Shown: positions 12,738-31,986 of the stretch, piece by piece | How the letters are laid out: every line of letters starts with the position of its first letter | Position numbering within the stretch: position 1 is the first letter of the stretch | Assembly: GCA_017470985.1 (NCBI GenBank) | Contig: JAFUXA010000004.1 | Span: forward strand, 1 to 64,000 | Source of the DNA: Lachnospiraceae bacterium | GTDB lineage: Bacteria; Bacillota; Clostridia; Lachnospirales; Lachnospiraceae | Reading direction: 5' to 3' | DNA length: 64,000 nucleotides | Position numbers and translations under genes: made by a program | Notes under the pieces: model-generated | Told to the model about the DNA's origin: nothing | Database searches by the model: none | Seen by the model: the letters and a program-made list of their open reading frames with translations, nothing else

Positions 12738-12738
12738 C

Positions 12739-14741: not shown

Positions 14742-14817
14742 GCATTCTCCACCTATATGTTGCAATTAATAGTTGTTCTAATTATATTCTCAAATGCGAA
14801 CAAAATCAAACATATTC

Positions 14818-15346
14818 TTGGGAACAGCGTAAGTTCTCAGATTTGGTTCTGATAGAGCGTGGTGGATCTCCTAGACCAATCGATGATTACATAACAGATT
14901 TATCCGATGGTCTTAACTGGGTAAAGATTGGAGACGCACCTTCACAAGGTCGGTATATTACAAAAACTGCTGAAAAAATAAAACCTGAAGGATTATCCAA
15001 AACGAGACAGGTACAGCCTGGCGACCTTATTCTTTCTAACTCGATGAGCTTCGGAAAACCTTATATTATGGGGATAAATGGCTGTATTCATGACGGTTGG
15101 TTACTCATAAGGGATACTCAAAATAGGTTTGATTTAAAGTTCTTATGCCATATGCTTGGAACAGACCAGATGCTTAATCAATACAGGATGTTTGCTGCCG
15201 GTAGTACGGTCAACAACTTAAATAAAGAGCTTGTAGGAAATACAACTGTATCCCTTCCTTCGGTTGGTGAACAGCGAGTTATTGGGGAGTATCTGGAGTC
15301 TGTTGATGACCTTATCACCCTTCAACAGCGTGAGCACTCAGAGTGA
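14818..15346 (+). pseudogene. Silent HsdS specificity cassette 1 (inverted)
   Basis: This promoterless target-recognition module lies on the strand opposite hsdS. It begins in the repeat encoding WEQRK (14818-14835) and ends in the repeat encoding LITLQQR (15310-15334), followed by EHSE and a stop. In between lies about 475 bp encoding a type I specificity domain (VLIERGGSPRPIDDYITDLS, DGLNWVKIGDAPSQGRYI, then a conserved QRVIGEYLESVDDL helix). There is no start codon or ribosome binding site of its own. The open frame extends upstream only by chance. It becomes useful only when recombination places it behind the hsdS leader. Confidence 0.8.
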
Positions 15347-15357
15347 TAAGGTTGTCT

Positions 15358-16287
15358 TTAACTTAAGCTGGACAAAGATCTCATTACCAAATCAACATCT
15401 TGATTTTCCAGCTCATGTATAATATGCAAGTAAGTCTTTTGAGTTGTTGTCATGCTGGCATGTCCAAGTCTCCTTGCCACGCTCCCTACTGAGACTCCAG
15501 CAAATAATAAAATAGAAGCATGCGTGTGCCTAAGTCCATGCACCGATATAACAGGCACGCCAGCAGCATTACAATGCCTTTCCAAAATATCATTTACCGT
15601 GGAGTTATAAACCCTTTCTTTTGTCACAAATATGGGCTTATCCTGAGGAAGATTCTTAACCAGTTCCGAAAACTGTACAACCGTCTGCCAATCAATCTGA
15701 ATTTTTCTTACCGAAGATTTATTTTTCGTTGGCAGAAAACCTCCTTTTCCTTTGTAATCCCATGTTTTACTTATAGAAAGACTCTGATGCGAAAAGTCAA
15801 AATCCTTAGGAGTCAATGCAAGAGCCTCTGAAAAACGCATTCCCGTCTTCGCGACCAGCAGTATAAACCAATCCCAATTAATCTCATTATCAAGATTTAA
15901 ATTCAAAAGAAGCGTGTGTAGTTCAAACTGATTAAGATACTTAATCTTCTTCTCTGCAGGCGTCTTTCCTTTGATAATAACCTTTCTTGTCGGATCCCGA
16001 TCAATCAATCCTTCGTCTACGGCATCTAGTATTGCACCCTTTAATTGATGATGAAAGTCCATCGTTGTCTGCCTCTCATGACATTCAGCATAATCATTCA
16101 ATAGCTGTTGATATGCGATTCTTGTCATATCACACATTTTCAATTCTGGAACAAGCTTATAAAGCCATGTCTGAGTCATTAAATACTTATCCAACGTAAC
16201 CTTACGAATGGCTCCCTCCTTATAAACGTGAACCCATTGTGCGTAGTAGTCCGCGAACAAGTCTGTATTCTTTACTTGATCTAGCAT
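15358..16287 (-). CDS. Tyrosine recombinase, probable HsdS cassette invertase
   Basis: A protein of 309 residues. The N-terminal SAM-like DNA-binding domain is followed by a catalytic domain with Arg in TGMRFSEALAL, the HGLRHTHAS box, LGHAS and the nucleophile Tyr in QKTYLHI. It lies between silent cassettes 1 and 2, the usual place for the dedicated recombinase of shuffling type I restriction loci, and is separate from the element's own integrase at 28846. A GGAGG lies about 10 nt upstream of the ATG. It is likely to act on the repeats encoding WEQRK and LITLQQRK, which share AACAGCGTAAG. Confidence 0.85.
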   Translation of the reverse strand: MLDQVKNTDLFADYYAQWVHVYKEGAIRKVTLDKYLMTQTWLYKLVPELKMCDMTRIAYQQLLNDYAECHERQTTMDFHHQLKGAILDAVDEGLIDRDPTRKVIIKGKTPAEKKIKYLNQFELHTLLLNLNLDNEINWDWFILLVAKTGMRFSEALALTPKDFDFSHQSLSISKTWDYKGKGGFLPTKNKSSVRKIQIDWQTVVQFSELVKNLPQDKPIFVTKERVYNSTVNDILERHCNAAGVPVISVHGLRHTHASILLFAGVSVGSVARRLGHASMTTTQKTYLHIIHELENQDVDLVMRSLSSLS

Positions 16288-16308
16288 ATTGCACCTCCGT
16301 TTCTATAT

Positions 16309-16844
16309 TTAAACACGCTCACGCTGTTGAAGGGTGATAAGGCTTTCTAATTTCTTAAAATACTTTCCAATGAGCTTCTGCTCTTCAACATCTTGTGGTA
16401 ACTGTAATGAGGTTTCAAGAAAGTCCTCAGCAGAAATATTTAATAGCCCATGATTTCTTGCACCCTCGGCAGCTACTGCCTGAACTCCTTTGTGCCATAA
16501 GGCAGTGTCATAATATGTCACAAGATAATCGGAATCTGTTTTATCTTCTTCCAGAATACTGAAAACTATGTAAAGCGTTGATAAAACGCCCATATCATAT
16601 CTGTCCAAGCGTTTTATAGCTCCCCATGGAGCGTCCGTAGAAGTGCTCTTGTTATAAGCGAATTCACCATTCTTTACAAGGTAGTATCCACTAACATCTT
16701 TGCTAGCTATTCGCTTATCAAAGAATTCATTCTGATCAATAAGTCCATACTGTGCTGAAATTGTTAAAGGCAGCTCGGATTCTAAATCTTGATTTTTACG
16801 TGTGACTCTTTCCACAATGTCGGAGAGCTTACGCTGTTCCCAAG
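16309..16844 (-). pseudogene. Silent HsdS specificity cassette 2 (same strand as hsdS)
   Basis: It runs from the WEQRK-coding repeat (16828-16844) to the LITLQQR-coding repeat (16318-16342), then RERV and a stop. The module (LSDIVERVTRKNQDLESELP, later YLVTYYDTALWHKGV) is a target-recognition domain unlike the ones in hsdS. The frame continues a little upstream as IWRKNTNAWEQRK with no start signal. It has the same orientation as hsdS, so it cannot be exchanged by one simple inversion with hsdS. Confidence 0.8.
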
Positions 16845-16884: not shown

Positions 16885-17438
16885 TTACCGCTGTTGAAGG
16901 GTGATAAGGCTATCAAGGTTTGCAAAACACTCCCCAATCATAGTCTGCTCTTCGATAGATTTTGGCATGATCATATCAGTATCTTGCAGTGCCGACTTTG
17001 AAATTGATGTAACTTTTATTCCCTGCATCAGCGGTTTTAACTGATTATGATATGCCGGAGAATTGATATAGTAGCCCAGGAACATCGGGCCATATTTTTC
17101 CTTTGGCCGACATGCTATCGTATGAAGTCCTGACGATAGTTTCAAGCCTTCGGAGCCCTGTATTTCTGTACATTTACCCACAGTATCATCCTCTGCTGTA
17201 TCTGCAATTATAATGTCCCCATCTTGCAAAAAAGAGTTCTTAAACTTATCGGCTTTAGCATCATCGGATATATACGGCAGATTTGTTTCGGAGGCATCAA
17301 TATAGTCACCAAACTTTATCAGCACATCACCATAATGAACATTCTTAACAGTACCGTTTTCATAGTTTAAATCTGCTCTCGACAGGGTATTATTCTGCAA
17401 TCCTTCAAAGACCGAAACAAACTTACGCTGTTCCCAAG
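16885..17438 (-). pseudogene. Silent HsdS specificity cassette 3 (same strand as hsdS)
   Basis: It lies between the WEQRK repeat (17420-17438) and the LITLQQR repeat (16888-16909). The protein reads FVSVFEGLQNNTLSRADLNY, then a recognition domain of about 150 residues ending in EEQTMIGECFANLDSLITLQ. It sits immediately downstream of hsdR and has no start codon of its own. The LITLQQR-side repeat carries an extra base (AACAGCGGTAAG), so the frame is shifted or ended directly after it. Confidence 0.8.
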
Positions 17439-17446
17439 AAACGCAC

Positions 17447-17472
17447 GAGAGCCAAGGAAATCCTTGGCTCTC
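17447..17472. repeat. Perfect hairpin after hsdR
   Basis: GAGAGCCAAGGA and TCCTTGGCTCTC, 12-bp arms with a 2-nt loop, between the hsdR stop and cassette 3. It has no T run, so it is a weak terminator or an RNA-end stabiliser. Confidence 0.6.
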
Positions 17473-17499
17473 ACTATACTTACGCTTAGTATTCAGTTT

Positions 17500-20400
17500 T
17501 TAATCAAAAACCTCGATCTCAAATCCGCCTTCTAAAATAAAATCCCTCAGCAGTTTATCGACCCTTACATTAACTTTCGGAATCGGCAGTTTCTGTCCTG
17601 TAAGCTTTTCAAAATACGCTCTTGCCCTATCCTTATCGACAGTCGCCTTCAATGCATCAAATCTACCAAATTCATTAATATTGTCCTCGGTGATATGATG
17701 TGCCATCATGTCTCTAAGCATAATCTCGTTTAAGCCAAGTGCATAAACAGCTAATCTATGTATCTGATCATCTTTCGCTTTAGAACAATACTCTATTACG
17801 TACTCCTTAAATGTCTTACCCTGAACGACAACAATATCTCCGCTTTGAATATCATGCAGGAAGATATTTGCAAATTTTTGTTCTTCTTGAGACAACGTTG
17901 CAAAAGTCTTATGAAGTTCCTCTTCTGCTTTTCTCAGTTCTTCAGCATCAGCCCCTTCAGCATGAAGAATTTTTAGATACTTTTCAAACCTAGAGTTCAT
18001 GTAATCGGAATCAATCTTATCCGTATCAATAGTTGTTATATAGCCATCAATATCATATGGCACTTCTTCTCCTCCTGGTCCTGGTCCCGGTCCAAAGAGT
18101 TCTTTATATCTCTTTACAAGAATAAGATATATCGTCTCATCCAGAGCCATGGTAACAATATCATCTTCTCCAGTTTCATCATTATGAAAGCTGTATTCTA
18201 ACTTCTTCCATGAGAATCCTTGAACCTTTGCAGCCTCCAAATAGTCATTAAACTGTTTAAACAGCTCTGCAAATTTCTTCCGCTCACTCATTTCAGGAGG
18301 AAGCTTTTCAAAATTGACAACTCCGGCCTGCTCAAAAACATCCTTAATTTGCTCATACAAGAAGTTCATATTATTGAGGTTTTTCTGAAGTCTTTGTGCA
18401 AAAAGTCCCAACGGGCGATCTCCGGAATAAAGCTTTACTGCCGCCTCGATATACTTTTCCATTGTATGCGGTCTGCGATAGTACTTAATTGTGCCAAAAG
18501 GTTTATCCGGGCCAAAAAGACGATTTGTTCTCGAAAATGCCTGGATAATATTCTCGTATCTAAGCACTTTATCCATATACAAGGTATTTATCCACTTCGA
18601 ATCAAATCCGGTCAGCATCTGATCAACAACTATCAAAAGGTCGATTTCTTTCTCCGGCTCGCGTTCTATTCGCTCATACGGCTTTTTATGTGCAAGTCTT
18701 GCAGCGATGTCTTTTTTCATCTTACCAAAAGTCGCCGCCCTAAAGTCTTGTTTATATCTCTCGTTATAATCTTCAATAATTTCTTTTAAGCCTTCCTCTT
18801 TAATCTTTGCTCCGCCATTATTATCAATGCTTGGATCAAATAATGCCGTCACTTTTAGATTTGTAGCCGCATCCTTGAATCTCTTATAGTATTCCAGTGC
18901 TTCCGGAATACTACTCGTTGCAAAAATAGCATGGAATTTGCCACCTTGACTTAATACAACCCAGTTATCAATGATGTCCTTTACCACCATCTCCTGATGT
19001 TCATCAGTCCGGTACTGGCTATTCGGAAGATAATCTTCGATACCTTTTACATACGTTCCCTCATTCTCATAATGTCCTGCCATAGGAATATCTTGCATAT
19101 ACTCAAGAAAAACCTTTTTCTTTGCTGAATCCGCAAAAGCTTCTTCTACGCTTTCTGCTTTTGCTTTTTCAAGAGCAACAACCGTTCTAACATCTTTATC
19201 CTTAAATGTAAGTACTTTATAAGGATCAAACCCAAGAACGTTCTTATCCCTGATTCCATCAGCTATGCTATACCTATGTAACTCATTACCAAATACAGTA
19301 GATGTCGTATTCATCTTCTTTTGGTTTTCATCCTGAATAGGTGTTCCAGTAAAGCCAAAGAAAATCGCTTTTTTAAATGTGTCCTTAATCGTTCTAAGCA
19401 TATCGCCAAAAGTAGAACGATGTGCTTCATCCACAATAAAAACCAATCGTTTTGAATTGATAATATCTATATCGCTGGCCTTCAGTCCATCATTTTCCTC
19501 GCTTATATTACTCATCTTCTGAATAGATGTAACGATAAGTGTATCTGCCGGATCTGTGCTTTTCAGTTTTCCAACAAGTACGTGTGTATCTTCCGTTTCT
19601 TGAACCGTATTACTCTTTTGCTGTTCGGTAAGACCCGCTCCTGCAAAGTTCCTGTATTCCTTCAATGACTGCGTTCCAAGTTCAATTCGATCCATAAGGA
19701 ACACAACTTTGTCCGCATCCTTTGATGTGGCAATCAACTGTGCTGACTTAAACGATGTCATAGTTTTTCCGGAACCTGTTGTATGCCAGATATATCCTCC
19801 CAGCTGGTTTTCTTCCTCCCACTTGGTTCTTGAAACCTTATCAGAAATTGCATTTGCTGCGTAATACTGATAACTTCTCATTACTTTTAAAACGCCATCT
19901 GAATCGTCAGCTACAGTATAAAAACCTATCAACTGATGAGCCATCGGTATTGAAAGTAATGTTGAACCAATTTGCTTCCAATTATTCATTGGCTCATTGT
20001 TAAAATCAGCCCAATGGAAATAATAATTCGGATTAAACTTTCCTTCCGGACCGGGATTTGCAAAATACAATGTTTCATCTGGGTTCATTGCTACAAAGAT
20101 TTGAACCAATGAAAACAAACCAGTAAATATTCCTTCATCTGAGTATTTTTCAATCTGATTAGAAGCCTGACTAACAGGAACCCCACTCTTTTTTAGCTCG
20201 ATGTGGATTACTGGCATACCATTTATTAGCAGCATCAGGTCTCCACGGCGATCATTTAATACCTTAGATTTTGTTGGAAACGCTGGTTGTTGTACAATCT
20301 GATACCTACTTTGTCCTCCTGCTATTTCCATGCAATCATATATTTTCAGAGAAATCTCTTTGCCGAAATGAGCTACATCGTCAGGATTGTCTCTTTTTAT

Positions 20401-20667
20401 TGAAACACTTCCGCCATTAATAAACCCATTCAAACGCAAAGGTGTTTTAAGATTATTAATCTGATCAAGTATCTGATCCATTTCGCTTTGGGTTAATGGA
20501 TAATCATTCAAGCGATCTATCCCACGATTATTCTCGTACAGAATATCTGCCCAGTTTTGTATTAACTGTTGCTCTGTCGGGTTTTTAATGACTCCCCCCG
20601 ACCATCCAGAGTTTACAAGTAAGTCTATTAACGCTTGTTCAAACTCGGATTCCTTGTTAAAAACCAT
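17500..20667 (-). CDS. hsdR: Type I restriction enzyme, HsdR subunit
   Basis: A protein of 1,055 residues. The nuclease domain near residues 130-170 has the PD-(D/E)xK pieces (DLMLLINGMP, HIELKK). The motor domain has Walker A (HTTGSGKTMTS), the DEAH box (VDEAHRS) and motif III (FGFTGTP), with the later helicase motif QMLTGFDSKW and AFSRTNR. It cuts and translocates DNA in complex with HsdM and HsdS. The start at 20667 follows a GGAGAGGAAG stretch; an alternative upstream TTG overlaps the hsdS stop. It is the last gene of the hsdM-hsdS-hsdR operon. A GPGPGPGG loop near residue 860 is unusual. Confidence 0.95.
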   Translation of the reverse strand: MVFNKESEFEQALIDLLVNSGWSGGVIKNPTEQQLIQNWADILYENNRGIDRLNDYPLTQSEMDQILDQINNLKTPLRLNGFINGGSVSIKRDNPDDVAHFGKEISLKIYDCMEIAGGQSRYQIVQQPAFPTKSKVLNDRRGDLMLLINGMPVIHIELKKSGVPVSQASNQIEKYSDEGIFTGLFSLVQIFVAMNPDETLYFANPGPEGKFNPNYYFHWADFNNEPMNNWKQIGSTLLSIPMAHQLIGFYTVADDSDGVLKVMRSYQYYAANAISDKVSRTKWEEENQLGGYIWHTTGSGKTMTSFKSAQLIATSKDADKVVFLMDRIELGTQSLKEYRNFAGAGLTEQQKSNTVQETEDTHVLVGKLKSTDPADTLIVTSIQKMSNISEENDGLKASDIDIINSKRLVFIVDEAHRSTFGDMLRTIKDTFKKAIFFGFTGTPIQDENQKKMNTTSTVFGNELHRYSIADGIRDKNVLGFDPYKVLTFKDKDVRTVVALEKAKAESVEEAFADSAKKKVFLEYMQDIPMAGHYENEGTYVKGIEDYLPNSQYRTDEHQEMVVKDIIDNWVVLSQGGKFHAIFATSSIPEALEYYKRFKDAATNLKVTALFDPSIDNNGGAKIKEEGLKEIIEDYNERYKQDFRAATFGKMKKDIAARLAHKKPYERIEREPEKEIDLLIVVDQMLTGFDSKWINTLYMDKVLRYENIIQAFSRTNRLFGPDKPFGTIKYYRRPHTMEKYIEAAVKLYSGDRPLGLFAQRLQKNLNNMNFLYEQIKDVFEQAGVVNFEKLPPEMSERKKFAELFKQFNDYLEAAKVQGFSWKKLEYSFHNDETGEDDIVTMALDETIYLILVKRYKELFGPGPGPGGEEVPYDIDGYITTIDTDKIDSDYMNSRFEKYLKILHAEGADAEELRKAEEELHKTFATLSQEEQKFANIFLHDIQSGDIVVVQGKTFKEYVIEYCSKAKDDQIHRLAVYALGLNEIMLRDMMAHHITEDNINEFGRFDALKATVDKDRARAYFEKLTGQKLPIPKVNVRVDKLLRDFILEGGFEIEVFD

Positions 20668-20692: not shown

Positions 20693-21913
20693 TTATACAA
20701 ACATCTTTTCCAGCATAGATTTCTTAATATTTTTCAGCTTTTCCAGCTTACGCTGTTGAAGGGTGATAAGGTTATCTATTCTCGATAAATAGGCAGCAAT
20801 TTTATGCTGTTCAGCCAAGTATGGAGATACCATTATCTCAATCTCACTTAATGCTGGGTACTTCAAATTCCAGTTATCTGATGTAATCCCTTGGGAATTC
20901 ATTTGGAAAACATGCGTCATATCACTGCGTTTAAAAAGGTACGAAATACACTTTGAATCAACTACATCAGTAATCGGTGAAAGCACCGTATATGCAGGAC
21001 TTACAATACCTTCATACGGTGAATACCCACTTGCTCCTTGCCACATTCTCATAGAGTTGTAGGCAATATCCCCTACGCATACTTTCTTATATTTCGACTT
21101 ATCATCATTGGAATTATCATGTCTTCCAAGCTCAGAAAACTTCTTGATTCCCTCTCCGATTGTTACAGAGATTAATTCTCCCTCTGGCATACTATCCTTG
21201 CGTTCTGTGAAGCATTCTCCCAGCTTACGCTGTTCCCAATCGTCAGTAAATCCTTCAAATCTAATTTCAGGAACTTTTGCCCCCTCACGAGGAAACATTT
21301 TTTCGAGCATGGATTTTTTTACATTTACCAACTTGTCATACTTACGCTGTTGAAGGGTGATAAGGTTGTTAAGTTCATCAATGAAACTACTTATTTTTCT
21401 CTGTTCAGCTATACTTGGAACAGGAACAACACACTCATAGTAATCTTTAAGATTGTAATTATTTCTTCCGTCACCAGTCGAAATGTTCATAGCAAAGTTT
21501 TTATGCGTATCTGTATTTAGATAAGCGCACAAGTATTCCGATGTTATTTTTTCTTTATCTGGTCTTGTAACAATAGTAGCAAAACCTATTGAACCTGCCT
21601 CTTTTTCGGTAATTACAGCTGATGTTCCTATATCACCAGTATGTACTGTAATCACATCCCCTACTTTATGTTTTCTCGAAGCATTTTGTTTTGCAAATTC
21701 ATCATCAAGATAAATGGGTTTGTCACCAAACTCAAATCGTCCATCTTTGATATCTGAATTTCGGATCAGTAACGCTCCATGGTCAGTGTAGTGAGATGTC
21801 ATTGTTGTGACCAATCCTATATATATTTCACCCAGTTCCGTAACCTTACGCTGTTCCCAATCGTCAGTAAATCCTTGGAATCGAATATCAGGTTTTCTTT
21901 TATTATCACCCAT
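20693..21913 (-). CDS. hsdS: Type I specificity subunit HsdS, expressed copy
   Basis: A protein of 406 residues with the normal two-domain plan. A leader ends FQGFTDDWEQRK, followed by recognition domain 1, then LITLQQRKYDKLVNVKKSML as central conserved helix. A second copy of the leader (FEGFTDDWEQRK), recognition domain 2 and the conserved end (LITLQQRKLEKLKNIKKSML) follow. Each recognition domain is thus bracketed by the same DNA repeats that bracket the four silent cassettes. The start at 21913 follows GGAGGT and lies one base after the hsdM stop. It determines which DNA sequence is methylated and cut, and is expected to change by recombination. Confidence 0.95.
   Translation of the reverse strand: MGDNKRKPDIRFQGFTDDWEQRKVTELGEIYIGLVTTMTSHYTDHGALLIRNSDIKDGRFEFGDKPIYLDDEFAKQNASRKHKVGDVITVHTGDIGTSAVITEKEAGSIGFATIVTRPDKEKITSEYLCAYLNTDTHKNFAMNISTGDGRNNYNLKDYYECVVPVPSIAEQRKISSFIDELNNLITLQQRKYDKLVNVKKSMLEKMFPREGAKVPEIRFEGFTDDWEQRKLGECFTERKDSMPEGELISVTIGEGIKKFSELGRHDNSNDDKSKYKKVCVGDIAYNSMRMWQGASGYSPYEGIVSPAYTVLSPITDVVDSKCISYLFKRSDMTHVFQMNSQGITSDNWNLKYPALSEIEIMVSPYLAEQHKIAAYLSRIDNLITLQQRKLEKLKNIKKSMLEKMFV
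21341..21365 (-). repeat. Cassette repeat B (encodes LITLQQRK), six copies
   Basis: The consensus on the coding strand is CCTTATCACCCTTCAACAGC followed by GTAAG. In hsdS it is at 21341-21365 and 20747-20771. In the silent cassettes it is at 15310-15334 (plus), 16318-16342 (minus), 16888-16909 (minus) and 25265-25289 (plus). The two hsdS copies are perfect. All four silent copies deviate in the last bases (GTGAG, GTGAG, GGTAAG, TGTAAG). Confidence 0.85.
21845..21860 (-). repeat. Cassette repeat A (encodes WEQRK), six copies
   Basis: The core is TTGGGAACAGCGTAAG on the coding strand. In hsdS it is at 21845-21860 and 21224-21239. In the silent cassettes it is at 14818-14835 (plus), 16828-16844 (minus), 17420-17438 (minus) and 24776-24793 (plus). 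All six keep AACAGCGTAAG intact. It shares that 11-bp stretch with repeat B, so it may be the recombinase core site. Confidence 0.85.
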
Positions 21914-21914
21914 A

Positions 21915-24470
21915 TTAGACACCTCCAAGCATTTTCTTTAATTCTGCTATTCCTTGCATATCGAAATCATTACCAGATAACATACTAAGCATTCTAGATA
22001 ACTCATTTTCAGTACTACTTATCTGATCTTCTACCTGTTCAAGTGTATCCTCATATTTTGAACACAACTTTCCAAGCTCAGTAATGAGTTCACTAATAAA
22101 GCTATCTGGCAACTGCTGCAAACTTTCTACAAGAGGAACAATCCATTTATCGTGTAAAAGCTCCATTACTTGGTCATCTTCTAAGTTCTCTATCAATTTC
22201 TTAGTTTCAAGATGTAGTTTCTCTCCATCGTCTTTTATTTGCTTTTTAAGTTTTTTCTCTTCATCATTATTTGATAAAACCTTTTTCAGAACTGCAAGAA
22301 CCTCAGGCTCAACATCTTTGGCTTTTATTGCCTTTTTAACCTCTGCCCACACAAATGCCGTCTTGTCATCATTTACAAAGTCTTTATCTTTTTCTTCTTC
22401 CGGAAGTTCATCTAATGCTTCATCGTAACTTGCTACGATTTCGGATAATCTTTCTTCCGCTTTCTTAAGGGCTTCTACGGCTTGACTCATATACTTTGCC
22501 TGCGCGAGTTCAAATGGTATAACATGTCCAATCCATCCCTCCTGTACTTCTTGATCTTTACCATTCTTCTTTTTAATTACCATATTAGGATCTACTTGTT
22601 TTGTAGCTTCAAATCCTTCACTTTGAATAATTTCAAGATCTACAGAAATCTTGTTCCAATCATTATCAAGAATTTGGTATGCTTCATATGCATCCACAAG
22701 AGGCATTCCCTTTAATCTGCCAAAAATATCCTCGCTTAATACAGCTTCCTCCTTGGATATGTTCACACCAGACATTGCCTGCATAAGCTCTTTCTTTAAA
22801 TACTCGTCAAATCCATCAAAAGAGGCTATGTATCTGCTGATAAAAGCTCTTACATCTTCACTACTTTGTACGGCTTTTTTAATATCACTGGTCCTTAATT
22901 CGTAATATGAATCATTAACCTTTGCAAAGATTTCTCCTTTAAGAGCTGGAAAAGCTGCCCAGTAATCCGACAACTCGTCAACTTCCTTTGCCGGTATTCC
23001 GCCAAACATAGACGCATAAATATCCCAGCTTTCTGGCTTTTCCGATGAATCCACATATCGCGGAATATTTAAGTTGTAGTCGTTCTCTCTAATTTCATCA
23101 CGGGAGACTACGCGAGAAAACTTATGTACATCCATTCTCTTTGTGACTACATCTGTGATTTTCTTTATGTCTGATGCTCTTAACTTATTATTCTTACCAA
23201 CCTTCTCATAGCCTTTTGATGCATCAACAATGAGAATATCTGTATTATCGCGTTTCTGTTTTAAAACCATGATGATGGTTGGAATACCTGTACCAAAGAA
23301 AATATTGGCAGGTAAACCTATTACCGCATCAATATGGTTATTCTCAATAAGATTTCTTCGGATTTCACCTTCCTCACCGCCTCTGAACAGAACGCCATGA
23401 GGTAATACTATAGTCATGATTCCATCATTCTTGATATGGAACAAATCATGAAGAAGGAACGCATAATCCGCCTTACCTTTTGGCGCCAAACCAAATCTTG
23501 CATATCTTGGATCTGCTTCTTTATCTGCCGGATTCCAGTTCTGTGAATACGGAGGATTTGATACGACTGCATCCACATACAATGGGTCATATGTACCAAC
23601 TGGATCACTCTCATCAAAGTATGGCCAGTCTTCTTCAAGTGTATCTCCGTTTCTTGTGACAATATTATCCGGAAGGATACCTCTCATAACGAGATTCATT
23701 CTCGTAAGGTTATATGTATTTTCTTTTAATTCCTGAGCATAGTATTTAATTCTGTCACTGTCGCCCATATGTTTTCCAACTGCTTTACCAATGTTAATAA
23801 GTAAAGAGCCCGAACCAGACGTAGGATCATAGATCTTTATTTCTGTTCTGTCCTTTAAATGGTCTGCGACAATTTCAGACATAAGGAGTGATACCTCATG
23901 CGGGGTGTAGAACTCTCCTGCTTTCTTTCCGGCATTTGCTGCAAAGTTTGAGATAAGATACTCATAAATAAAACCTAGGACATCATAGTCCTGCTTTCCA
24001 TCCATAGGGATATCTTTTATTAAATGCAACAGATCACTTATAGCTTTTGTCTGTGAATTTGAACTGTCTCCTAGTTTTGACAAACCAGTCTGCAATGTAT
24101 CAAAAACTCCATCGAAAACCTTTTTATGAGAGGTGTTTATCAATCTACTAAATGCTGAAAGCGCATCTCTTACATCTGCAACATTAAAGTCACTACCCTT
24201 TGCAAGCCAAGTAGAGAACAAATTATCATAGCTTATGAAATATCCAATATTCTTTTGTATATTCTCAACTATTTCTTTGTCATCTTCTGTGACAGTATCC
24301 ATGTCGTCATTAGTATATCCAAGTTCGATGAGATACTTTACTTCTTTGTCTGAAAGGAACTTGTAAAAGATGAATCCAAGGATATAATCCTTATATTCAT
24401 TCGCCTCAATTTTAGACCGCATTTTATTTGCAGACTCCCATATCTTCGCTGCCAATTGTTGTTTGTTCAT
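21915..24470 (-). CDS. hsdM: Type I DNA methyltransferase, HsdM subunit
   Basis: A protein of 851 residues. The N-terminal HsdM helical domain (KIWESANKMRSKIEANEYKD) is followed by the adenine methyltransferase core, with the SAM-binding loop DPTSGSGSLL and the catalytic NPPY (VVSNPPYSQNW). The region from about 600 to the end is highly charged and coiled (EEKKLKKQIKDDGEKLHLET and later), longer than in classical HsdM but common in clostridial loci. It methylates the site chosen by HsdS. It is cotranscribed with the HTH regulator upstream and hsdS downstream. Confidence 0.95.
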   Translation of the reverse strand: MNKQQLAAKIWESANKMRSKIEANEYKDYILGFIFYKFLSDKEVKYLIELGYTNDDMDTVTEDDKEIVENIQKNIGYFISYDNLFSTWLAKGSDFNVADVRDALSAFSRLINTSHKKVFDGVFDTLQTGLSKLGDSSNSQTKAISDLLHLIKDIPMDGKQDYDVLGFIYEYLISNFAANAGKKAGEFYTPHEVSLLMSEIVADHLKDRTEIKIYDPTSGSGSLLINIGKAVGKHMGDSDRIKYYAQELKENTYNLTRMNLVMRGILPDNIVTRNGDTLEEDWPYFDESDPVGTYDPLYVDAVVSNPPYSQNWNPADKEADPRYARFGLAPKGKADYAFLLHDLFHIKNDGIMTIVLPHGVLFRGGEEGEIRRNLIENNHIDAVIGLPANIFFGTGIPTIIMVLKQKRDNTDILIVDASKGYEKVGKNNKLRASDIKKITDVVTKRMDVHKFSRVVSRDEIRENDYNLNIPRYVDSSEKPESWDIYASMFGGIPAKEVDELSDYWAAFPALKGEIFAKVNDSYYELRTSDIKKAVQSSEDVRAFISRYIASFDGFDEYLKKELMQAMSGVNISKEEAVLSEDIFGRLKGMPLVDAYEAYQILDNDWNKISVDLEIIQSEGFEATKQVDPNMVIKKKNGKDQEVQEGWIGHVIPFELAQAKYMSQAVEALKKAEERLSEIVASYDEALDELPEEEKDKDFVNDDKTAFVWAEVKKAIKAKDVEPEVLAVLKKVLSNNDEEKKLKKQIKDDGEKLHLETKKLIENLEDDQVMELLHDKWIVPLVESLQQLPDSFISELITELGKLCSKYEDTLEQVEDQISSTENELSRMLSMLSGNDFDMQGIAELKKMLGGV

Positions 24471-24484
24471 TTCTTTGCCTCCGA

Positions 24485-24712
24485 TTATTTATTCTTTGTT
24501 TGCTCAAGCCATGCCTTTTCTAATTCACCAAAAGAAAACCCATTTTTTTCACAAAAATCCTTCATCTGTTTCATCGCCTTCATATTGGGCACAGTCTTCC
24601 CATTTTCCCATCGATTAATGGTTGAAAATGCCACACCGAACTCAGAGGCAAACTCTTCCTGCGTCATGAACGATTTTTGACGTATTTTCTTGATTTCATT
24701 AGATAAATCCAT
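24485..24712 (-). CDS. XRE-family HTH regulator of the restriction operon
   Basis: A protein of 75 residues dominated by one helix-turn-helix (MTQEEFASEFGVAFSTINRW, then ENGKTVPN). GGAGG precedes the ATG at 24712 by 9 nt. It is the first gene after the promoter at 24743-24771 and lies 14 nt before hsdM. It most likely represses or times the operon, as small controller proteins do for restriction-modification genes. It lies inside the segment between the inverted A repeats, so it would flip together with hsdM. Confidence 0.8.
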   Translation of the reverse strand: MDLSNEIKKIRQKSFMTQEEFASEFGVAFSTINRWENGKTVPNMKAMKQMKDFCEKNGFSFGELEKAWLEQTKNK

Positions 24713-24742
24713 CTTGCATTTCCTCCGCATAAACATAGCTCA

Positions 24743-24771
24743 ATTATAGCATTTGTAGAGCAGGAACACAA
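24743..24771 (-). promoter_or_regulatory. Promoter of the regulator-hsdM-hsdS-hsdR operon
   Basis: On the minus strand: TTGTGT, 17 nt, TATAAT. It ends four bases before the inverted A repeat at 24776, so it lies inside the potentially invertible segment. Confidence 0.7.
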
Positions 24772-24775
24772 TCGT

Positions 24776-25295
24776 TTGGGAACAGCGTAAGTTGGGAGAT
24801 ATGGTTTCGTTTTCTAAAGGTTCAGGTTATTCCAAGGGTGATTTGAAAGAAGATGGAACTCCTATAATATTGTATGGAAGACTCTATACAAAATACGAAA
24901 CTATCATATCTGAAGTAGATACTTTTGTTGACGAGAAAAAAGGCTCGGTTTTTAGTAAAGGCGGTGAAGTGATTGTACCGGCATCTGGGGAAACTGCGGA
25001 AGACATTTCGATAGCTTCAGTAGTTGAAAAATCTGGGGTTTTGCTCGGTGGAGACCTTAATATAATAACTCCCCCTGATGAGATGGATTCAGCATTTTTG
25101 GCAATCAGTATTTCTAACGGAAAACCGCACAACGATATGGCAAAAATGGCTCAAGGCAAATCGGTTGTCCACCTTCATAATACCGACTTGGAAAAGATAG
25201 ATTTACCATATCCAAGCCACGACGAACAGAGAAGAATAAGTGGGTTCTTTTCTGATCTCGACAACCTTATCACCCTTCAACAGTGTAAGTCATAA
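24776..25295 (+). pseudogene. Silent HsdS specificity cassette 4 (inverted, beyond hsdM)
   Basis: It starts in the A repeat (TTTGGGAACAGCGTAAGTT, encoding WEQRKL) and ends in the B repeat (LITLQQCKS, stop at 25293-25295). The recognition domain reads LGDMVSFSKGSGYSKGDLKE, then GRLYTKYETIISEVDTFVDE, and ends with the conserved DEQRRISGFFSDLDNL helix. It has no start signal. It faces away from hsdM, back to back with the operon promoter, so one inversion between the A repeats would join it to the hsdS leader. Confidence 0.8.
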
Positions 25296-25786: not shown

Positions 25787-26797
25787 TTACATTGTACCAT
25801 ACATGTCGTGATTTACCTCAGCGGTATAGTAATGATTTATCGTGTTTGGTGCGTTATAGAGTGCTGTTGTCAGGTATGCTTTGATATTTGACACCTTGGT
25901 TGTGTTATTCTTCATGCAGCCGATAACATATTCCAAATGCGTTGAATTGAGCTTCAGAAACTTGCTCTTCACCAAGTTATACGGATAGTCTTCCCCTGCT
26001 ATACGAATTGTCTTTCTTGGAACACAGACCACATCGCAGATCAGCTGATAAAGCTCGTCATACATTTCTCTATCAGACCATTTCTTGTTGCTCATCATGA
26101 TGTCATAATCAATGTTTTCACGAATAAGCTCCATATATGCGGTAGTTTCATCCATCTGATCCATCCTCGTAACGCGGATAGGCGTATCCATACGCTCGCC
26201 GGATTGAATGATATGATCAGTATCACTAAATTCAATATTGTTAAAATCATTATTATTCGGGTCTGATTTCTGTACTACCCCTGGTATAGAATCCTGACAG
26301 GTACCGGTATTAACATCTGACTGGTCTTTCATATTTACCGGTCTAATATCTGTACCGGTAGAATATTTAGACTGGTGTTCTGCCACCGGTTCATTTTCCT
26401 TACCTGTACAATTTTCTGACCGGTCTAATGACTCTTCTTCCCCTCCGGATACGAAGTTCTTAACATAGATGATATTTGCAAGCCCATTTCTCTGCTCAAT
26501 ATCCACTAAGCCAATAGCCTGCAATTCCTTCAAAAGACCTACTGCTGTCATCTTGCTACAATTAAGATCTTCCATGATGCTTTTTATCGAATACTTGATA
26601 TAAACCCTGTTCTGATCATCAAACCATCCGCTTCTGACGGAAAGTGACATACGATCAAGCATCAGTCCATACAAAAGCTTGGAATTATTCGATATATCCT
26701 TAAACCTATTGTCTGTTATCAAAGCCTTCGGCAGGCGGTAGAACGTAAACTGCTCTGCCTCCTGCCCATAATAAAACTCCAGCTTCAGCCTCTCCAT
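25787..26797 (-). CDS. repA: Replication initiator protein A (RepA_N type)
   Basis: A protein of 336 residues. The N-terminal region (FYRLPKALITDNRFKDISNN, SKLLYGLMLDRMSLSVRSGW, DDQNRVYIKYSIKSIMEDLN) is the winged-helix RepA_N domain of plasmids and integrative elements of Firmicutes. The linker is Ser/Thr/Asn-rich, and the C-terminal domain (KKWSDREMYDELYQLICDVV, ending YTAEVNHDMYGTM) is of the helical type. It binds origin repeats to start replication of the excised circle. The start overlaps the parB stop (TAATG). Confidence 0.85.
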   Translation of the reverse strand: MERLKLEFYYGQEAEQFTFYRLPKALITDNRFKDISNNSKLLYGLMLDRMSLSVRSGWFDDQNRVYIKYSIKSIMEDLNCSKMTAVGLLKELQAIGLVDIEQRNGLANIIYVKNFVSGGEEESLDRSENCTGKENEPVAEHQSKYSTGTDIRPVNMKDQSDVNTGTCQDSIPGVVQKSDPNNNDFNNIEFSDTDHIIQSGERMDTPIRVTRMDQMDETTAYMELIRENIDYDIMMSNKKWSDREMYDELYQLICDVVCVPRKTIRIAGEDYPYNLVKSKFLKLNSTHLEYVIGCMKNNTTKVSNIKAYLTTALYNAPNTINHYYTAEVNHDMYGTM

Positions 26798-27702
26798 TAA
26801 CGCGGTTCCCCTTTCTCCTTCCATTCATCAAGGAGCTTTACGATAAGTTCCTCGATATCCTCATTGCTCATATCCGGGGTAAAATAGTTGTCCAGCTTCT
26901 TCTGGTTAAATACTACCTTACGTGGTTTTGGTTTCTTCTCCGACAGATAATCCTTTAAGAAATCTGCGTTCAGATAACCCTTGCGGGACGATTCCTTTAT
27001 CCTTGCACTCTGCTCCTGGCTAAGTGACACTCCCATCTCCGAAATAACTTCATATACGATTTTCTGTTGCTCCTGCGGAATAAAAGAAAGATCCACCCCC
27101 TGACGAAGGCCCAGCTTCTTTTCATCCACCATAGCAAGCAATTTCTCATCCAAGCTGGCGATGCAGATTAAACGCTGAATGGTCTTCATGCTCTCCCCCG
27201 CCTGCTCACTCATGGTTTTAAGGGAAATACCCTGAGCCTTGCCCTGATGCTTCATGGCTTCATATTTCATCTGATAAGCCTTTGCTCGCTCACTGACAAG
27301 AATATCCTCACGCTGGATATTGGCATCCACCATGATTACTACAGCTTCATCATTATCACAGTCACGAACAATAACCGGCATGGTATCTTTACCTGCCAGT
27401 TCGGATGCATGTTTTCTTCTGTGACCGGATATAAGTTCATATCCACCTTCTGCTCTCGGTCTTGCGATAGCCGGAACCAACACGCCATATTCCTTGACGC
27501 TTTCCACCATTTCTTCCATATTTTTATCGTCTACGACACGAAAAGGATGGTTCTCAAAGGTATGCAGTTCCGATAAAGGGATCTCTACTATCTGTCCCTC
27601 AACAAGTTTTGCTTCTGCTGTAGCATTACCATCATTCTCCGCCGAAAACATATCATCATAGCTGGAAAGCTTGATTCTATTTGATAATCCCTTACTGCTC
27701 AT
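26797..27702 (-). CDS. parB: ParB partition protein
   Basis: A protein of 301 residues. The N-terminal CTP-binding/nuclease-like domain shows the conserved ELISGHRRKHASELAG motif and NIQREDILVSERAKAY. The central HTH (ISLKTMSEQAGESMKTIQRL) binds parS. The C-terminal dimerisation part is lysine-rich. Together with ParA it would keep the circular form stable. It overlaps parA by 11 nt. The 25-bp palindromes at 1.4-3.5 kb are possible binding sites, but nothing in the sequence proves this. Confidence 0.9.
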   Translation of the reverse strand: MSSKGLSNRIKLSSYDDMFSAENDGNATAEAKLVEGQIVEIPLSELHTFENHPFRVVDDKNMEEMVESVKEYGVLVPAIARPRAEGGYELISGHRRKHASELAGKDTMPVIVRDCDNDEAVVIMVDANIQREDILVSERAKAYQMKYEAMKHQGKAQGISLKTMSEQAGESMKTIQRLICIASLDEKLLAMVDEKKLGLRQGVDLSFIPQEQQKIVYEVISEMGVSLSQEQSARIKESSRKGYLNADFLKDYLSEKKPKPRKVVFNQKKLDNYFTPDMSNEDIEELIVKLLDEWKEKGEPR

Positions 27703-28477
27703 TGGCTAAAACCTCCTCTACAATCTTTTCATACGCCGCTGCTACTTTACCCTTGCCATCATATTTATAGATGCTGACTCCTTCAGCAGATGCCTCCGCA
27801 GCTCTAACGGAAAGCGGAATCACATCATCGAAAATATGGATGCTGCTTCCATAGTGCTCATACAGCACTTCCGTGATTTCCTTAGCATAAATGGTTCTGT
27901 AATCCACCATCGTAATCAGAATTCCCATAATATGAAGCTTCGGGTTCATCTTGCGTTTCACACGGCTGATGGTCTTTAAAAGCTGTTCCAAACCCTTTAT
28001 AGGCAGATATGCAGCCTGTACCGGAATGATTACTTCATCCGCCGCTACAAGGGCATTTAAGGTAAGCTGTCCAAGATTCGGAGAACAGTCCACAAGAATA
28101 TAGTCATAATCGTCTCTTACAGATTCGATATACTCCCGAAGCGTTGTCTCCGAACTCATGATTCCAACAAGGGATGTTTCCACACCGGACAATTCGATAT
28201 TTGCCGGCATAAGGTCGATACCTTCCTCATGATGCAGGATACCGGCTTTCAGATCATAATCGTCCTCGTTTAACACCCATTCCATTACATTGGCAAGTGT
28301 GATCTCCAGCTTATCCGGCTGCGGATATCCTAATGCTTCCGTGAGAGATCCCTGGGGATCATTGTCGATTACAAGGACTCTCTTTCCCTTATTTGCCAGA
28401 CCGATGCCAAGATTTACCACAGACGTACTCTTGGCAACTCCCCCTTTTTGATTTGCACAGATAATTACTTTACACAT
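27692..28477 (-). CDS. parA: ParA partition ATPase
   Basis: A protein of 261 residues. The deviant Walker A motif is NQKGGVAKSTSVVN, Walker A' is VIDNDPQG and Walker B is YILVDCSPNLG, all standard for the Soj/ParA family. It drives segregation of the element's circular form together with ParB. It overlaps the RHH gene upstream by 8 nt and parB downstream by 11 nt, which fits a tightly coupled operon. Confidence 0.95.
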   Translation of the reverse strand: MCKVIICANQKGGVAKSTSVVNLGIGLANKGKRVLVIDNDPQGSLTEALGYPQPDKLEITLANVMEWVLNEDDYDLKAGILHHEEGIDLMPANIELSGVETSLVGIMSSETTLREYIESVRDDYDYILVDCSPNLGQLTLNALVAADEVIIPVQAAYLPIKGLEQLLKTISRVKRKMNPKLHIMGILITMVDYRTIYAKEITEVLYEHYGSSIHIFDDVIPLSVRAAEASAEGVSIYKYDGKGKVAAAYEKIVEEVLANEQ

Positions 28478-28865
28478 CTCGATATGCTCTCCTTTCCAAA
28501 AACTTATCTTTCCTTCTGATTTTATTTTTCTTATTCTTATCCTCGTTCTCCTTAAACGCTTCTAAGATTTCCAACATAGTGCGAATCGGTGTAAAAAGCT
28601 CCTCATCTATCTCGGAAGCTGCTTCTAACCGCTCCAGTTCTTCGAGAATCCCGTACAGCTCCTTACGGAAATTAACCAGCATCATAGGATTTCCCTTCGC
28701 CGTAACCTTGTTATGCAATACCGAATCAAGAACGTAGTCCTGCTTTGTCGCATACCCAAGCAGTTTCCATCGCTTATCCAATTCCTTTCTCTCAGCAGGA
28801 GAACAACGGTAAGCAATAGTCTCACTTCGCAATCTTCCTTTTGGATCAAGATTCTTCGCTGACAT
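28470..28865 (-). CDS. RHH-type mobilisation/plasmid accessory protein
   Basis: A protein of 131 residues. MSAKNLDPKGRLRSETIAYR, then CSPAERKELDKRWKLLGYAT and KQDYVLDSVL, form a ribbon-helix-helix-like DNA-binding domain as in MobC-type relaxosome proteins. The C terminus is lysine-rich. The ATG at 28865 follows AGGAGG with 7 nt spacing and overlaps the integrase end by 20 nt. A role in excision, transfer or regulation of the parA operon is possible; position alone does not decide. Confidence 0.6.
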   Translation of the reverse strand: MSAKNLDPKGRLRSETIAYRCSPAERKELDKRWKLLGYATKQDYVLDSVLHNKVTAKGNPMMLVNFRKELYGILEELERLEAASEIDEELFTPIRTMLEILEAFKENEDKNKKNKIRRKDKFLERRAYRDV

Positions 28866-29943
28866 CAAATCCCTCCTTCCATTCTTCATCAAGAGCCTCT
28901 GCCATATCATCCTGAATAGACGGCATCATATGTGCATAACGATAAGTAATATCCGAACTTTCATGGCCTACACGGTTACCGATAGCCACTGCCGAAAATC
29001 CCATATCTATAAGAAGCGATACATGGCTGTGTCTTAAATCATGAAGACGAATACGCTTTACCCCACTTGCCTTTACACCCCTATCCATCTCATGGTGCAA
29101 ATAAGACTTTGAAATCACAAAGATCCTATCGCTCGGTTCAATGCCATAAATGCTATCAAGGAAATCTTTCATTTCTAATGCCACATTCTCCGGCATAGAT
29201 ATCATACGCACACTCTTTGGAGTTTTAGGTTTTGTAATAACATCCCTTCCACTTATCCTTTGATATGACTTTGTGATAGATAGCTTATTCTTATCGAAAT
29301 CAAAATCCGCAGGAGTTAAAGCCATCAGTTCACCAATTCGGATCCCACACCAATACAAAAGCTCAAATGCCATATAGGAATAGGTTTTATTCGCGACCTC
29401 GGGAATGAAGCGCATATACTCTTCCTTTGTCCAAAAAAGCATTTCATCTGCATGGTGTTGTCCAAGTGGACCAGCAATTACAGCCGGATTCTTTGGCAGT
29501 TCGTAATACTTCACCGCATGATTGAATATGGCTGAAAGTTCCGCCTGCATCTTCCTAAGATAGGTTCCTTTGTATTTTTCACCATCCTGCGACTCACACT
29601 TACGCATCTCGTTTTGCCAAGCAATAACATCTCTCGGTGTAATCTCACGCATTACCAAATCTTTAAAATACGGTAGTATCTTTAACTCGATTACATATTC
29701 TTTGGACTTCCACGTATTCTCTCTAAGCTTTGGCTTTACATCATCGGTATAGCGTTTGTAAAAATCCCCAAAGGTCATATCAAGGCTACTGGCCTTTTCC
29801 AATGAAAAATGTCGTTCCCAGTCCTGTGCTTCCTTTTTGGTTGAGAAGCCACGCTTTAATTTTCTCTGCTGCTTACCTGTCCAGTCGGTGTAATACAACG
29901 ACACATACCAAGTGCCTCTCTTCTTATCTTTATAAACTGCCAT
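28846..29943 (-). CDS. int: Tyrosine integrase of the mobile element
   Basis: A protein of 365 residues. The N-terminal AP2-like arm-binding domain (VYKDKKRGTWYVSLYYTDWT) is followed by a SAM-like core-binding domain. The catalytic domain has Arg in CGIRIGELMAL, HDLRHSHVS, GHESS and Tyr in YRYAHM. GGAGG precedes the ATG at 29943. It overlaps the excisionase-like gene by 14 nt. It catalyses integration and excision. Its position 0.5 kb from the 3' end of guaA agrees with guaA being a common integration target. Confidence 0.95.
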   Translation of the reverse strand: MAVYKDKKRGTWYVSLYYTDWTGKQQRKLKRGFSTKKEAQDWERHFSLEKASSLDMTFGDFYKRYTDDVKPKLRENTWKSKEYVIELKILPYFKDLVMREITPRDVIAWQNEMRKCESQDGEKYKGTYLRKMQAELSAIFNHAVKYYELPKNPAVIAGPLGQHHADEMLFWTKEEYMRFIPEVANKTYSYMAFELLYWCGIRIGELMALTPADFDFDKNKLSITKSYQRISGRDVITKPKTPKSVRMISMPENVALEMKDFLDSIYGIEPSDRIFVISKSYLHHEMDRGVKASGVKRIRLHDLRHSHVSLLIDMGFSAVAIGNRVGHESSDITYRYAHMMPSIQDDMAEALDEEWKEGFDVSEES

Positions 29944-30145
29944 CTTCGTCCTCCTTTTCAAATGAATCAACTCCGTAGAATCTTTCTTCGAAATACTTTC
30001 TGCTTACTCTACCCGGGATTACCATGTAGCCTTTATCAGAAAGTTCCTTATTTAAGTCACGAACGATTGCATATGACTTTGATTCGGAAACACTCAATAC
30101 CTGACAGATCTCTTTTACCGATATAAACGTTCTGCATTCAAACAT
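29930..30145 (-). CDS. xis: Excisionase-like HTH protein
   Basis: A protein of 71 residues with one HTH (FISVKEICQVLSVSESKSYA), followed by a wing-like end (GRVSRKYFEERFYG). A small DNA-binding protein directly before the integrase, in an overlapping gene, is the normal arrangement for Xis in integrative elements of Firmicutes. GCGGAGGG precedes the ATG. It is the first gene of the xis-int-RHH-parA-parB-repA operon, and the 35-bp element lies 42 nt upstream. Confidence 0.8.
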   Translation of the reverse strand: MFECRTFISVKEICQVLSVSESKSYAIVRDLNKELSDKGYMVIPGRVSRKYFEERFYGVDSFEKEDEDGSL

Positions 30146-30441: not shown

Positions 30442-31986
30442 CTACTCGAGTTCCACGGTTCCAGGCGGTTTACTCGTCAAATCATAGAATACTCTATTTA
30501 CGCCTTTTACTTCATTAATAATTCTGCTCATTACTCTCTGCAAAACTTCAAATGGTATTTCAGATGCCTCTGCTGTCATGAAATCCACTGTCTCTACAGC
30601 ACGAAGTGCTACAGCATAATCATAAGTTCTCTCGTCACCCATTACACCCACAGATCTCATATTGGTAAGAGCTGCAAAATATTGATCCGGTAACTTATCC
30701 AATCCGGCATTTGCCAACTCTTCTCTATATATGAAATCAGCATCCTGTACAATCTGAACCTTCTCAGCTGTAACTTCGCCGATAATTCTAATTCCAAGTC
30801 CCGGTCCTGGGAATGGCTGTCTAAATACCAGATACTCTGGCAATCCCAGCTCCAATCCAGCTTTGCGCACCTCGTCCTTGAATAAATTACGCAATGGCTC
30901 AATAATCTCCTTGAAATCTACATAGTCAGGAAGGCCACCTACATTGTGATGAGATTTAATTACTACAGACTCTCCACCCAATCCTGATTCAACAACATCA
31001 GGATAGATAGTTCCCTGCGCCAGGAAATCAACCTGACCAATCTTCTTCGCTTCTTCCTCAAACACGCGAATGAACTCTTCACCGATAATCTTGCGCTTAG
31101 CCTCAGGCTCTTCCACACCTGCAAGCTTAGCATAATATCTATCAGCAGCATTTACCCTTACAAAGTTAATATCGAAGCTGCCCTCTGAGCCAAATACACT
31201 CTCAACTTCGTCTCCCTCGTTTTTACGCAACAAGCCGTGATCTACAAATACGCAAGTAAGCTGCTTGCCAATAGCCTTGGCAAGAAGAGCTGCCAAAACA
31301 GATGAATCAACACCACCAGAAAGTGCCAGAAGCACCTTGCCATCGCCAACCTTCTGGCGAATCTCACTAATAGAATTCTCCACAAATGAATCCATCTTCC
31401 ATGTACCGGCGCATTCACATACACCACGCACGAAATTATGAATCATCTTGGTACCTTCTACAGTATGTAATACTTCAGGATGGAACTGAATAGCATACAA
31501 CTTCTTCTCAGCACACTCCGCTGCCGCAACAGGACAATCTGCAGTATGAGCTACTATTCTAAATTCTGGTGCAACCTGTGAGATGTAATCAAAATGACTC
31601 ATCCAACAAGTTGTTGTAGCTGATACATTTCCAAATAATGCAGAATCATTTTTTACAAAAACCTCTGTCTTACCATACTCTCTGACAGGAGCTTTCTCCA
31701 CTTTGCCGCCAAGTACATGCATCATAAGCTGTGCACCATAGCATAATCCCAACACTGGAATTCCAAGCTCAAACAGCTCCTTGGTATATGTTGGAGAATC
31801 TGCCTCATAACAACTGTTTGGTCCACCTGTCAAAATGATTCCCTTAGGATTCATTGCTTTGATGGTTTCAATATCTGTCTTGTAAGAATATATCTCACAA
31901 TACACATTGCATTCTCTCACTCGTCTTGCAACCAGCTGATTGTACTGACCACCAAAGTCAATTACGATTACTTTTTCCTGATCCAT
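30442..31986 (-). CDS. guaA: GMP synthase (glutamine-hydrolysing)
   Basis: A protein of 514 residues. The glutamine amidotransferase domain has the catalytic Cys in GLCYGAQLM and the His/Glu in QFHPEV. The ATP-pyrophosphatase domain has SGGVDSSV, and the family-typical C terminus is KPPGTVELE. It converts XMP to GMP in purine synthesis. The ATG at 31986 follows GGAGG; the longer open frame lacks a site. The C terminus appears complete, so if an element integrated at its 3' end, the coding sequence was restored. Confidence 0.98.

Follow-up and report, generated by a model that had tools for sequence, protein, structure and literature searches.

The locus and its repeats

The window analysed here, 64,000 nt of Lachnospiraceae bacterium (GCA_017470985.1, contig JAFUXA010000004.1, positions 1 to 64,000, forward strand), carries on its minus strand a type I restriction-modification (R-M) operon with the order promoter, helix-turn-helix (HTH) gene, hsdM, hsdS, hsdR and terminator, accompanied by a tyrosine recombinase gene and four silent half-length hsdS cassettes (c1 to c4). 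HsdM, HsdS, HsdR and the recombinase were identified by Pfam and NCBIfam profile matches. The features, with A and B denoting the repeats that bound each half-hsdS and with cassette lengths referring to open reading frames (ORFs), are:

14818-15346, plus strand: silent half-hsdS c1 (A 14818-14833, B 15311-15334; Methylase_S on ORF 14540-15346; open for 175 codons)
15358-16287, minus strand: tyrosine recombinase (PF00589, 3.6e-21; weak XerA/D/C matches below the NCBIfam cut-offs)
16309-16843, minus strand: silent half-hsdS c2 (A 16828-16843, B 16318-16341; Methylase_S 7e-5; open for 177 codons)
16885-17437, minus strand: silent half-hsdS c3 (A 17422-17437, B 16885-16908; open for 183 codons)
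17445-17474, minus strand: intrinsic terminator directly behind hsdR (13-pair stem; fold of 17430-17500, z -4.9)
17500-20667, minus strand: hsdR, with an EcoR124-type C-terminal domain (profile match)
20693-21913, minus strand: expressed hsdS, 406 aa, two Methylase_S stretches
21915-24470, minus strand: hsdM, 851 aa (PF02384, 2e-102; TIGR00497 above cut-off)
24485-24736, minus strand: HTH_3 regulator (profile match)
24743-24771, minus strand: operon promoter, by eye (extended -10 TGCTATAAT at 24751-24743, -35 TTGTGT at 24771-24766, 17-nt spacer)
24776-25295, plus strand: silent half-hsdS c4 (A4 24776-24791, B 25266-25289; Methylase_S 6.8e-11; open for 172 codons)

The genes of the operon are closely packed, the end of hsdM and the start of hsdS almost abutting and the hsdS stop lying about 25 nt from the start of hsdR. 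The HsdR match to the EcoR124_C domain (3.5e-29) is a profile match to an EcoR124-type (IC) family that is defined by complementation. The operon promoter, whose -35 element stands four bases away from A4, is missing from the listing of a consensus promoter scan because that element is poor. For the HTH regulator a start at 24712, with a ribosome-binding site seen by eye ahead of it, is more likely than one at 24736.

Two short repeats punctuate all hsdS sequences of the window. The A site, 16 bp coding for WEQRK, opens every half-hsdS and occurs in six exact copies; the B site, 24 bp coding for LITLQQRK, closes every half-hsdS and occurs in six copies with 0-3 mismatches. The expressed hsdS accordingly reads leader, A1 (21845-21860), the first target recognition domain (TRD1), B (21341-21364), centre, A2 (21224-21239), TRD2 and B (20747-20770), and AACAGCGTAAG is common to A and both hsdS copies of B. 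Chance would give 0.32 matches per window for A, even allowing up to 3 mismatches, and 0.00 for B; none of 100 shuffles reached six A copies, and elsewhere in the 2.38-Mb, 35-contig draft assembly the A 16-mer has no counterpart other than one match with 2 mismatches. Copy numbers so far above chance, six for each site, favour a shuffling locus. Beyond their 16 bp the flanks of the A copies seem, by eye, unrelated, except for A1 and A2, which have a leader in common. A1 (minus strand) and A4 (plus strand) are exact inverted 16-mers whose pairing extends to 19 nt at 95%, and A2 and A4 form the longer-matching pair (27 nt at 93%).

Counted from A and in frame with it, the four silent cassettes are all open for 172-183 codons, although the Methylase_S match of c3 (3e-4, 21.4 bits) falls slightly below the Pfam cut-off of 22; no start codon with a ribosome-binding site was seen by eye at any of the four. 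Behind the terminator, c3 and c2 follow in the direction of the operon, while c1 lies past the recombinase and c4 past the promoter, both in reverse, and relative to hsdS c1 and c4 are thus inverted and c2 and c3 direct. The recombinase gene lies between the inverted B copies of c1 and c2 (15311-16341) and its product is, judging from sequence, the likely agent of recombination. The outermost cassettes, c1 (14818-15334) and c4 (24776-25289), point the same way and enclose the entire R-M locus, and recombination between their A sites would excise about 10 kb comprising operon, recombinase and cassettes.

Inversions predicted from the arrangement

The letters of the window were inverted in silico at each pair of inverted A or B copies, giving 16 single inversions. 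Eight of these spare hsdS, with TRD1 and TRD2 retained and hsdR coupled. Eight touch hsdS, and every one of them leaves hsdR on the strand opposite to the promoter, because c4 faces hsdS across hsdM and the promoter, and c1 faces it across hsdR. Four of the hsdS-touching inversions yield a full-length HsdS (TRD1 with c1, 400 aa; TRD1 with c4, 397 aa; TRD1 and TRD2 with an altered tail, 392 and 390 aa) and four a half HsdS (c1, 193 aa; c4, 190 aa; TRD1, 194 and 192 aa), the frame being kept in the products. The promoter lies inside the inverted segment in flips with A4 and outside it in flips with the A site of c1. Through two successive inversions the combinations TRD1 with c1, TRD1 with c4, c1 with TRD2 and c4 with TRD2 arise in silico with hsdR recoupled. 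Recombination of hsdS with c2 or c3 would, from geometry alone rather than from simulation, excise hsdR. Two of the segments recur below:

21845-24791, no strand: segment inverted in silico by A1 x A4, 2947 nt
21224-24791, no strand: segment inverted in silico by A2 x A4, 3568 nt, yielding a full-length HsdS of TRD1 and c4

The original prediction had singled out A1 and A4 as inverted copies whose recombination would flip about 2.9 kb, fuse the hsdS leader to c4 and leave methylation without restriction. The two sites are indeed exact inverted 16-mers, and the 2947-nt segment between them holds the promoter, the HTH gene, hsdM and the start and leader of hsdS; fusion of the leader to c4 gives the expected half-length HsdS in silico (190 aa), with hsdR on the opposite strand. 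A4 had been given as 18 nt; its 16-mer is 24776-24791, and the full 18 nt match the c3 copy exactly. The predicted methylation-only state holds by geometry, since an unlinked hsdR would lose its promoter, given the gap of about 25 nt behind hsdS and no promoter-like site listed there. A second promoter driving hsdR had been named as a finding that would overturn the idea, and on the operon strand between hsdR and A2 the consensus scan lists none. The coupling of a specificity change to the loss of hsdR likewise stands, but it is not special to A1 and A4, as all eight hsdS-touching inversions do the same; and next to the half-length HsdS from A1 x A4 there is A2 x A4, which had been overlooked and gives the full-length protein of 397 aa.

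Orientation and site layout in related loci

An HsdM scan of genome_contigs supplied the best 80 loci of 569 relatives, and further loci came from genome searches (loci are numbered with the prefix L). The orientation tally comprises 122 distinct hsdM genes, window excluded, the short stretches around matches (L001-L036 and L134-L168) being left out, and an A site was counted if it lay no more than 200 nt downstream of hsdM with 2 mismatches at most. By this measure 82 of the 122 have an A site downstream, and 14 of these 82 (70 of the 82 judgeable) also carry an inverted A in the 3 kb upstream, contrary to the earlier view that silent cassettes elsewhere all lie downstream. An hsdR gene is present on the same contig in 50 of the 82, downstream on the same strand in 44, upstream on the same strand in 4 and on the opposite strand in 2; a dedicated direction switch, as first proposed, is not shown by this distribution. 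The 14 loci with an upstream inverted A include three of normal order (L039, L050, L092), two with opposite strands (L101, L188) and nine without hsdR on the contig. Such a site is not independent evidence of flipping, because a flip itself produces an inverted A upstream.

The two loci with hsdM opposite hsdR differ in kind. L101, from the complete genome of Ruminococcus bicirculans 80/3, has hsdM followed by leader, A and half HsdS; its hsdR, on the opposite strand, stands behind a half that lacks a promoter. The half that follows hsdM and another cassette (the two copies at 5539-6056 and 12603-13101) are 99.4% identical over 535 bp, which points to recent copying in a decayed locus. In L188, from the same family as the window, the hsdM and hsdR frames are open, and the halves are separated by masked bases and an apparent transposon gene. 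In L237, a relative of L188, hsdR begins 160 nt away from a cassette that faces the other way, a spacing on account of which hsdR may have its own promoter in L188.

The closest HsdM proteins are 82% identical among the best 80 of 569 genome_contigs loci and 72% identical among 392 genomes of the order, so that no comparison within the species is available; in the genus of R. bicirculans one match was obtained among 28 other genomes. None of the 17 viral loci mapped has hsdM opposite a nearby hsdR, and among 2098 matching plasmid records the one inspected has an hsdM that is not flipped. Two candidate cases of alternative orientation were rejected. L045 and L046, two contigs of one metagenome-assembled genome (MAG), are collinear (98.7% over 5.6 kb) rather than two orientations, and a flipped state in G1005 was ruled out by a contig continuing L037, which joins in the normal orientation with a 55-nt overlap. 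The G124 locus is divided between two contigs.

Where the extra A copies lie was surveyed in 45 loci of the order hsdM, hsdS, hsdR, the window included, with hsdR downstream on the same strand and an A with no more than 2 mismatches within 200 nt after hsdM. A recombinase gene is found near hsdR in 25 of the 45, and 22 of these 25 have extra A copies: all outside the interval from hsdS to hsdR in 10 (the window, L038, L039, L071, L073, L081, L090, L092, L169 and L210) and partly inside it in 12 (L066, L086, L093, L108, L174, L175, L177, L181, L191, L195, L204 and L212), a layout in which hsdR can stay coupled during exchange. Inverted A copies at both ends were seen in the window and L092 only, in a survey that includes loci with less than 3 kb of sequence upstream, in which an upstream A could escape notice.

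Contig ends and recombinase association

Among the best 80 genome_contigs loci, 35 contigs run out less than 3 kb downstream of hsdM, and 8 of them do so 0-5 nt beyond an A or B site (null 0.59%, P 3e-11). On the upstream side 21 contigs run out over the same distance, 3 of them 0-5 nt beyond an inverted A (null 0.05%, P 1e-7). Because the loci are not independent, both P values are only rough. The contigs of L055 and L097 have an A at both ends, and consist of the block between them and little besides; together with those of L044, L067 and L077 they stop at an inverted A upstream of hsdM or close to one. In 5 further contigs the downstream end falls 124-125 nt beyond an A site, which would fit a k-1 overlap with k=141. 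A repeat of 15 or 16 bp alone should not break assemblies made with longer k, and contig ends exactly at A sites suggest that these sites recombine in populations of the relatives.

In the 58 loci where hsdR is followed by 3 kb or more of sequence, WEQRK occurs more than twice in 16 of the 24 with a recombinase near hsdR and in 1 of the 34 without (Fisher 1.3e-7), a link that, as drawn from sequence, is an association only. Recombinases known to work on short repeats offer precedents, PsrA, which needs repeats of 15 bp (PMC7096588), and TvrR (PMC6265443). WEQRK is spelled exactly as in A at 67 of 68 sites in loci with a recombinase and at 21 of 24 sites in loci without.

Recombination between the B sites of c1 and c2 would invert the recombinase gene itself. 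Flipping of this gene through bracketing B sites is unsupported among relatives, in the one tally that includes the later-mapped L231-L241: the gene lies on the same or the opposite strand as hsdR in 4 and 3 loci where B sites bracket it, and in 35 and 9 where they do not (Fisher 0.33).

Interpretation and rival explanations

We consider it somewhat probable that this is a recombinase-driven, specificity-shuffling type I R-M locus in which a single flip uncouples hsdR and a second restores the order. The recombinase would most likely join A with A and B with B, shuttling TRD1, TRD2 and c1 to c4 through the expressed hsdS. One inversion would take hsdR off its sole recognised promoter and leave hsdM with a new full-length HsdS (TRD1 with c4 through A2 x A4, TRD1 with c1 through A2 and the A of c1) or with a half, a state of methylation without restriction, and a second inversion would bring back the order with a new specificity and with restriction. 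We infer that the recombinase acts on the A and B sites, that inversion occurs in this organism, that hsdR falls silent once unlinked and that the unlinked arrangement serves mainly as a passing stage. For the flipped state, a place midway in an exchange of two steps is more likely than a role as a dedicated switch. In kind the mechanism is probably a known one, in what looks like a new arrangement.

A stronger proposal, which we hold only tentatively and on balance doubt, is that the arrangement acts as an interlock, in that no single inversion changes specificity with restriction coupled and that the methylation-only stage marks the genome before hsdR reconnects. That passage would be obligatory because every partner cassette is separated from hsdS by either hsdR or the promoter. 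With 10 loci having their extra A copies outside and 12 partly inside the interval from hsdS to hsdR, the interlock would be one of two layouts and not a rule. The question addressed is how a type I system may switch its specificity and yet spare its own chromosome: the order of the genes could by itself impose methylation first and restriction later, and the interlock, if true, would protect type I systems that switch specificity from self-restriction by their very layout. Methylation-only states may, moreover, sit one flip from restriction.

Several observations weigh against the two-step exchange. Within hsdM, a promoter-like match at 24361-24388 (plus strand, 10/12), now aimed at c4, would face hsdR following a flip with A4; it is perhaps a chance match, because the scanned region holds fewer such sites (11) than shuffles do (16.9). 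In 48 of the 50 loci hsdM and hsdR share a strand, which makes the flipped state uncommon among assembled sequences and perhaps no more than an intermediate. The L101 locus is decayed, with two TAA codons in hsdM and hsdR spread over two frames, and L188 belongs to another subfamily, whose hsdR may have its own promoter. The contig ends come from MAGs, in which strain mixture may be an alternative cause, and a first null for them, within 150 nt, gave no downstream excess (23/42 against 24.0 expected), though it did give one upstream (5/40 against 1.8); this null drew positions inside truncated contigs, was judged badly designed and was replaced by the later one. The conservation of WEQRK is also partly coding or ancestry, because the exact A spelling is common without a recombinase.

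A dedicated on/off switch, in which A1 x A4 flips usefully often between a restricting and a stable methylation-only state with a half HsdS acting as a dimer, seems unlikely. The 190-aa product it calls for exists in silico, and a naturally truncated HsdS of 208 aa is active in NgoAV (PMC9577141); L101 shows the same arrangement, hsdM with a half HsdS and hsdR behind another promoterless half, and the contigs of L055 and L097 are A-bounded blocks alone. Yet only 2 of the 50 loci are flipped, one of them decayed and the other doubtful, and because A2 x A4 and the B x B exchanges use the same sites nothing singles out A1 x A4. Rather less probable again is an exchange that proceeds only through homologous recombination or through excision followed by reintegration, with c4 exchanged without a free inversion of hsdM. 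The tvr locus relies on excision and reintegration at direct repeats (PMC6265443), both c2 and c3 run in the direction of hsdS, and of the 22 relatives that have a recombinase and additional A copies 12 have some of these between hsdS and hsdR; the near-identity of two half-hsdS copies in L101 is a sign of copying. But c1 and c4 are inverted to hsdS, so that a crossover at A or B there inverts, and hsdM does stand opposite hsdR in two loci.

Finally, A and B might be relics, mere coding similarity (WEQRK, LITLQQRK) left by duplication with no inversion at all, a reading we regard as very improbable. The frequency of the A spelling where no recombinase is present (21/24 WEQRK sites), the rarity of flips in assemblies and the assembly of the window's locus through on one contig speak for it, but the silent cassettes are still open, exact 16-bp cores stand within divergent flanks, the recombinase is intact and contigs of relatives break at A.

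Comparison with known systems

For Mycoplasma pulmonis, a 1998 abstract by Dybvig reportedly has hsdR and hsdM expressed only if properly oriented to the hsd promoter. The promoter there reportedly stays fixed outside the inverting segment, with hsdR and hsdM both lost. In the locus described here, by contrast, the promoter moves with hsdM in the flips with A4, so that restriction should disappear and modification continue. A change in the orientation of hsdM and hsdR to the promoter is in this case predicted in silico, and 2 of 50 relatives have hsdM opposite hsdR. Inverting type I R-M loci are well known (PMC7394358, PMC4948785), and the likeness to the M. pulmonis hsd loci with their HvsR recombinase is that hsdS inversions there alter specificity and some abolish R-M activity (PMC4948785).

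The pneumococcal cod/SpnIII locus (recombinase PsrA) resembles the present one in having a tyrosine recombinase within the locus, silent hsdS genes and inverted repeats down to 15 bp; it differs in that hsdR and hsdM precede the hsdS genes and are co-transcribed with hsdSA, so that switching turns round hsdS sequence and leaves both in place (PMC7096588). The pneumococcal tvr/SpnIV locus (TvrR) shares recombinase-linked single-TRD cassettes, but its R-M genes are all on one strand and its cassettes are exchanged through excision and reintegration between direct repeats (PMC6265443). The tvr pattern of all R-M genes and cassettes on one strand is broken here by c1 and c4, which lie on the opposite strand. 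The authors of the tvr study saw no obvious alleviation mechanism and proposed a low restriction efficiency (PMC6265443).

Among gut invertons, group 145 extends over two phyla, overlaps restriction subunit S and lies near tyrosine recombinases (both orientations) and mobilization genes (PMC11892184); the likeness to the present locus is one of description. A REBASE survey of inverting hsdS loci names multiple Ruminococcus species and accepts exact inverted repeats of at least 20 bp only, longer than A (PMC7394358), and screens of this type can miss A sites because A is 16 bp. The excerpts of PMC11892184 and PMC7394358 make no mention of a flipped hsdM or promoter, and in the open-licence literature no account was found of a segment with promoter, regulator and hsdM whose inversion keeps modification and loses restriction, which is a weak negative.

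Genomic surroundings and possible exchange of recognition domains

Beside guaA (30442-32067), the stretch 25787-30145 encodes a RepA_N protein, ParB, ParA, a NikA-like mobilization protein and an integrase, which suggests a mobile element as the carrier of the R-M locus; a search for an att repeat of the guaA 3' end gave just a 13-nt match. By eye, the TRDs of c1 (14818-15346) and L198 (14092-14664) are similar, as are those of c2 (16309-16843) and L188 (1893-2465), and this likeness between distant loci looks as if TRDs travel between genomes. In the viral contig IMGVR_UViG_2663763167_000013 (L130, L132), HsdM residues 1-217 are encoded at one end and 213-850 at the other, so that hsdM seems to be interrupted by a provirus around codon 215, and in L131 and L133 hsdM is cut near the same place.
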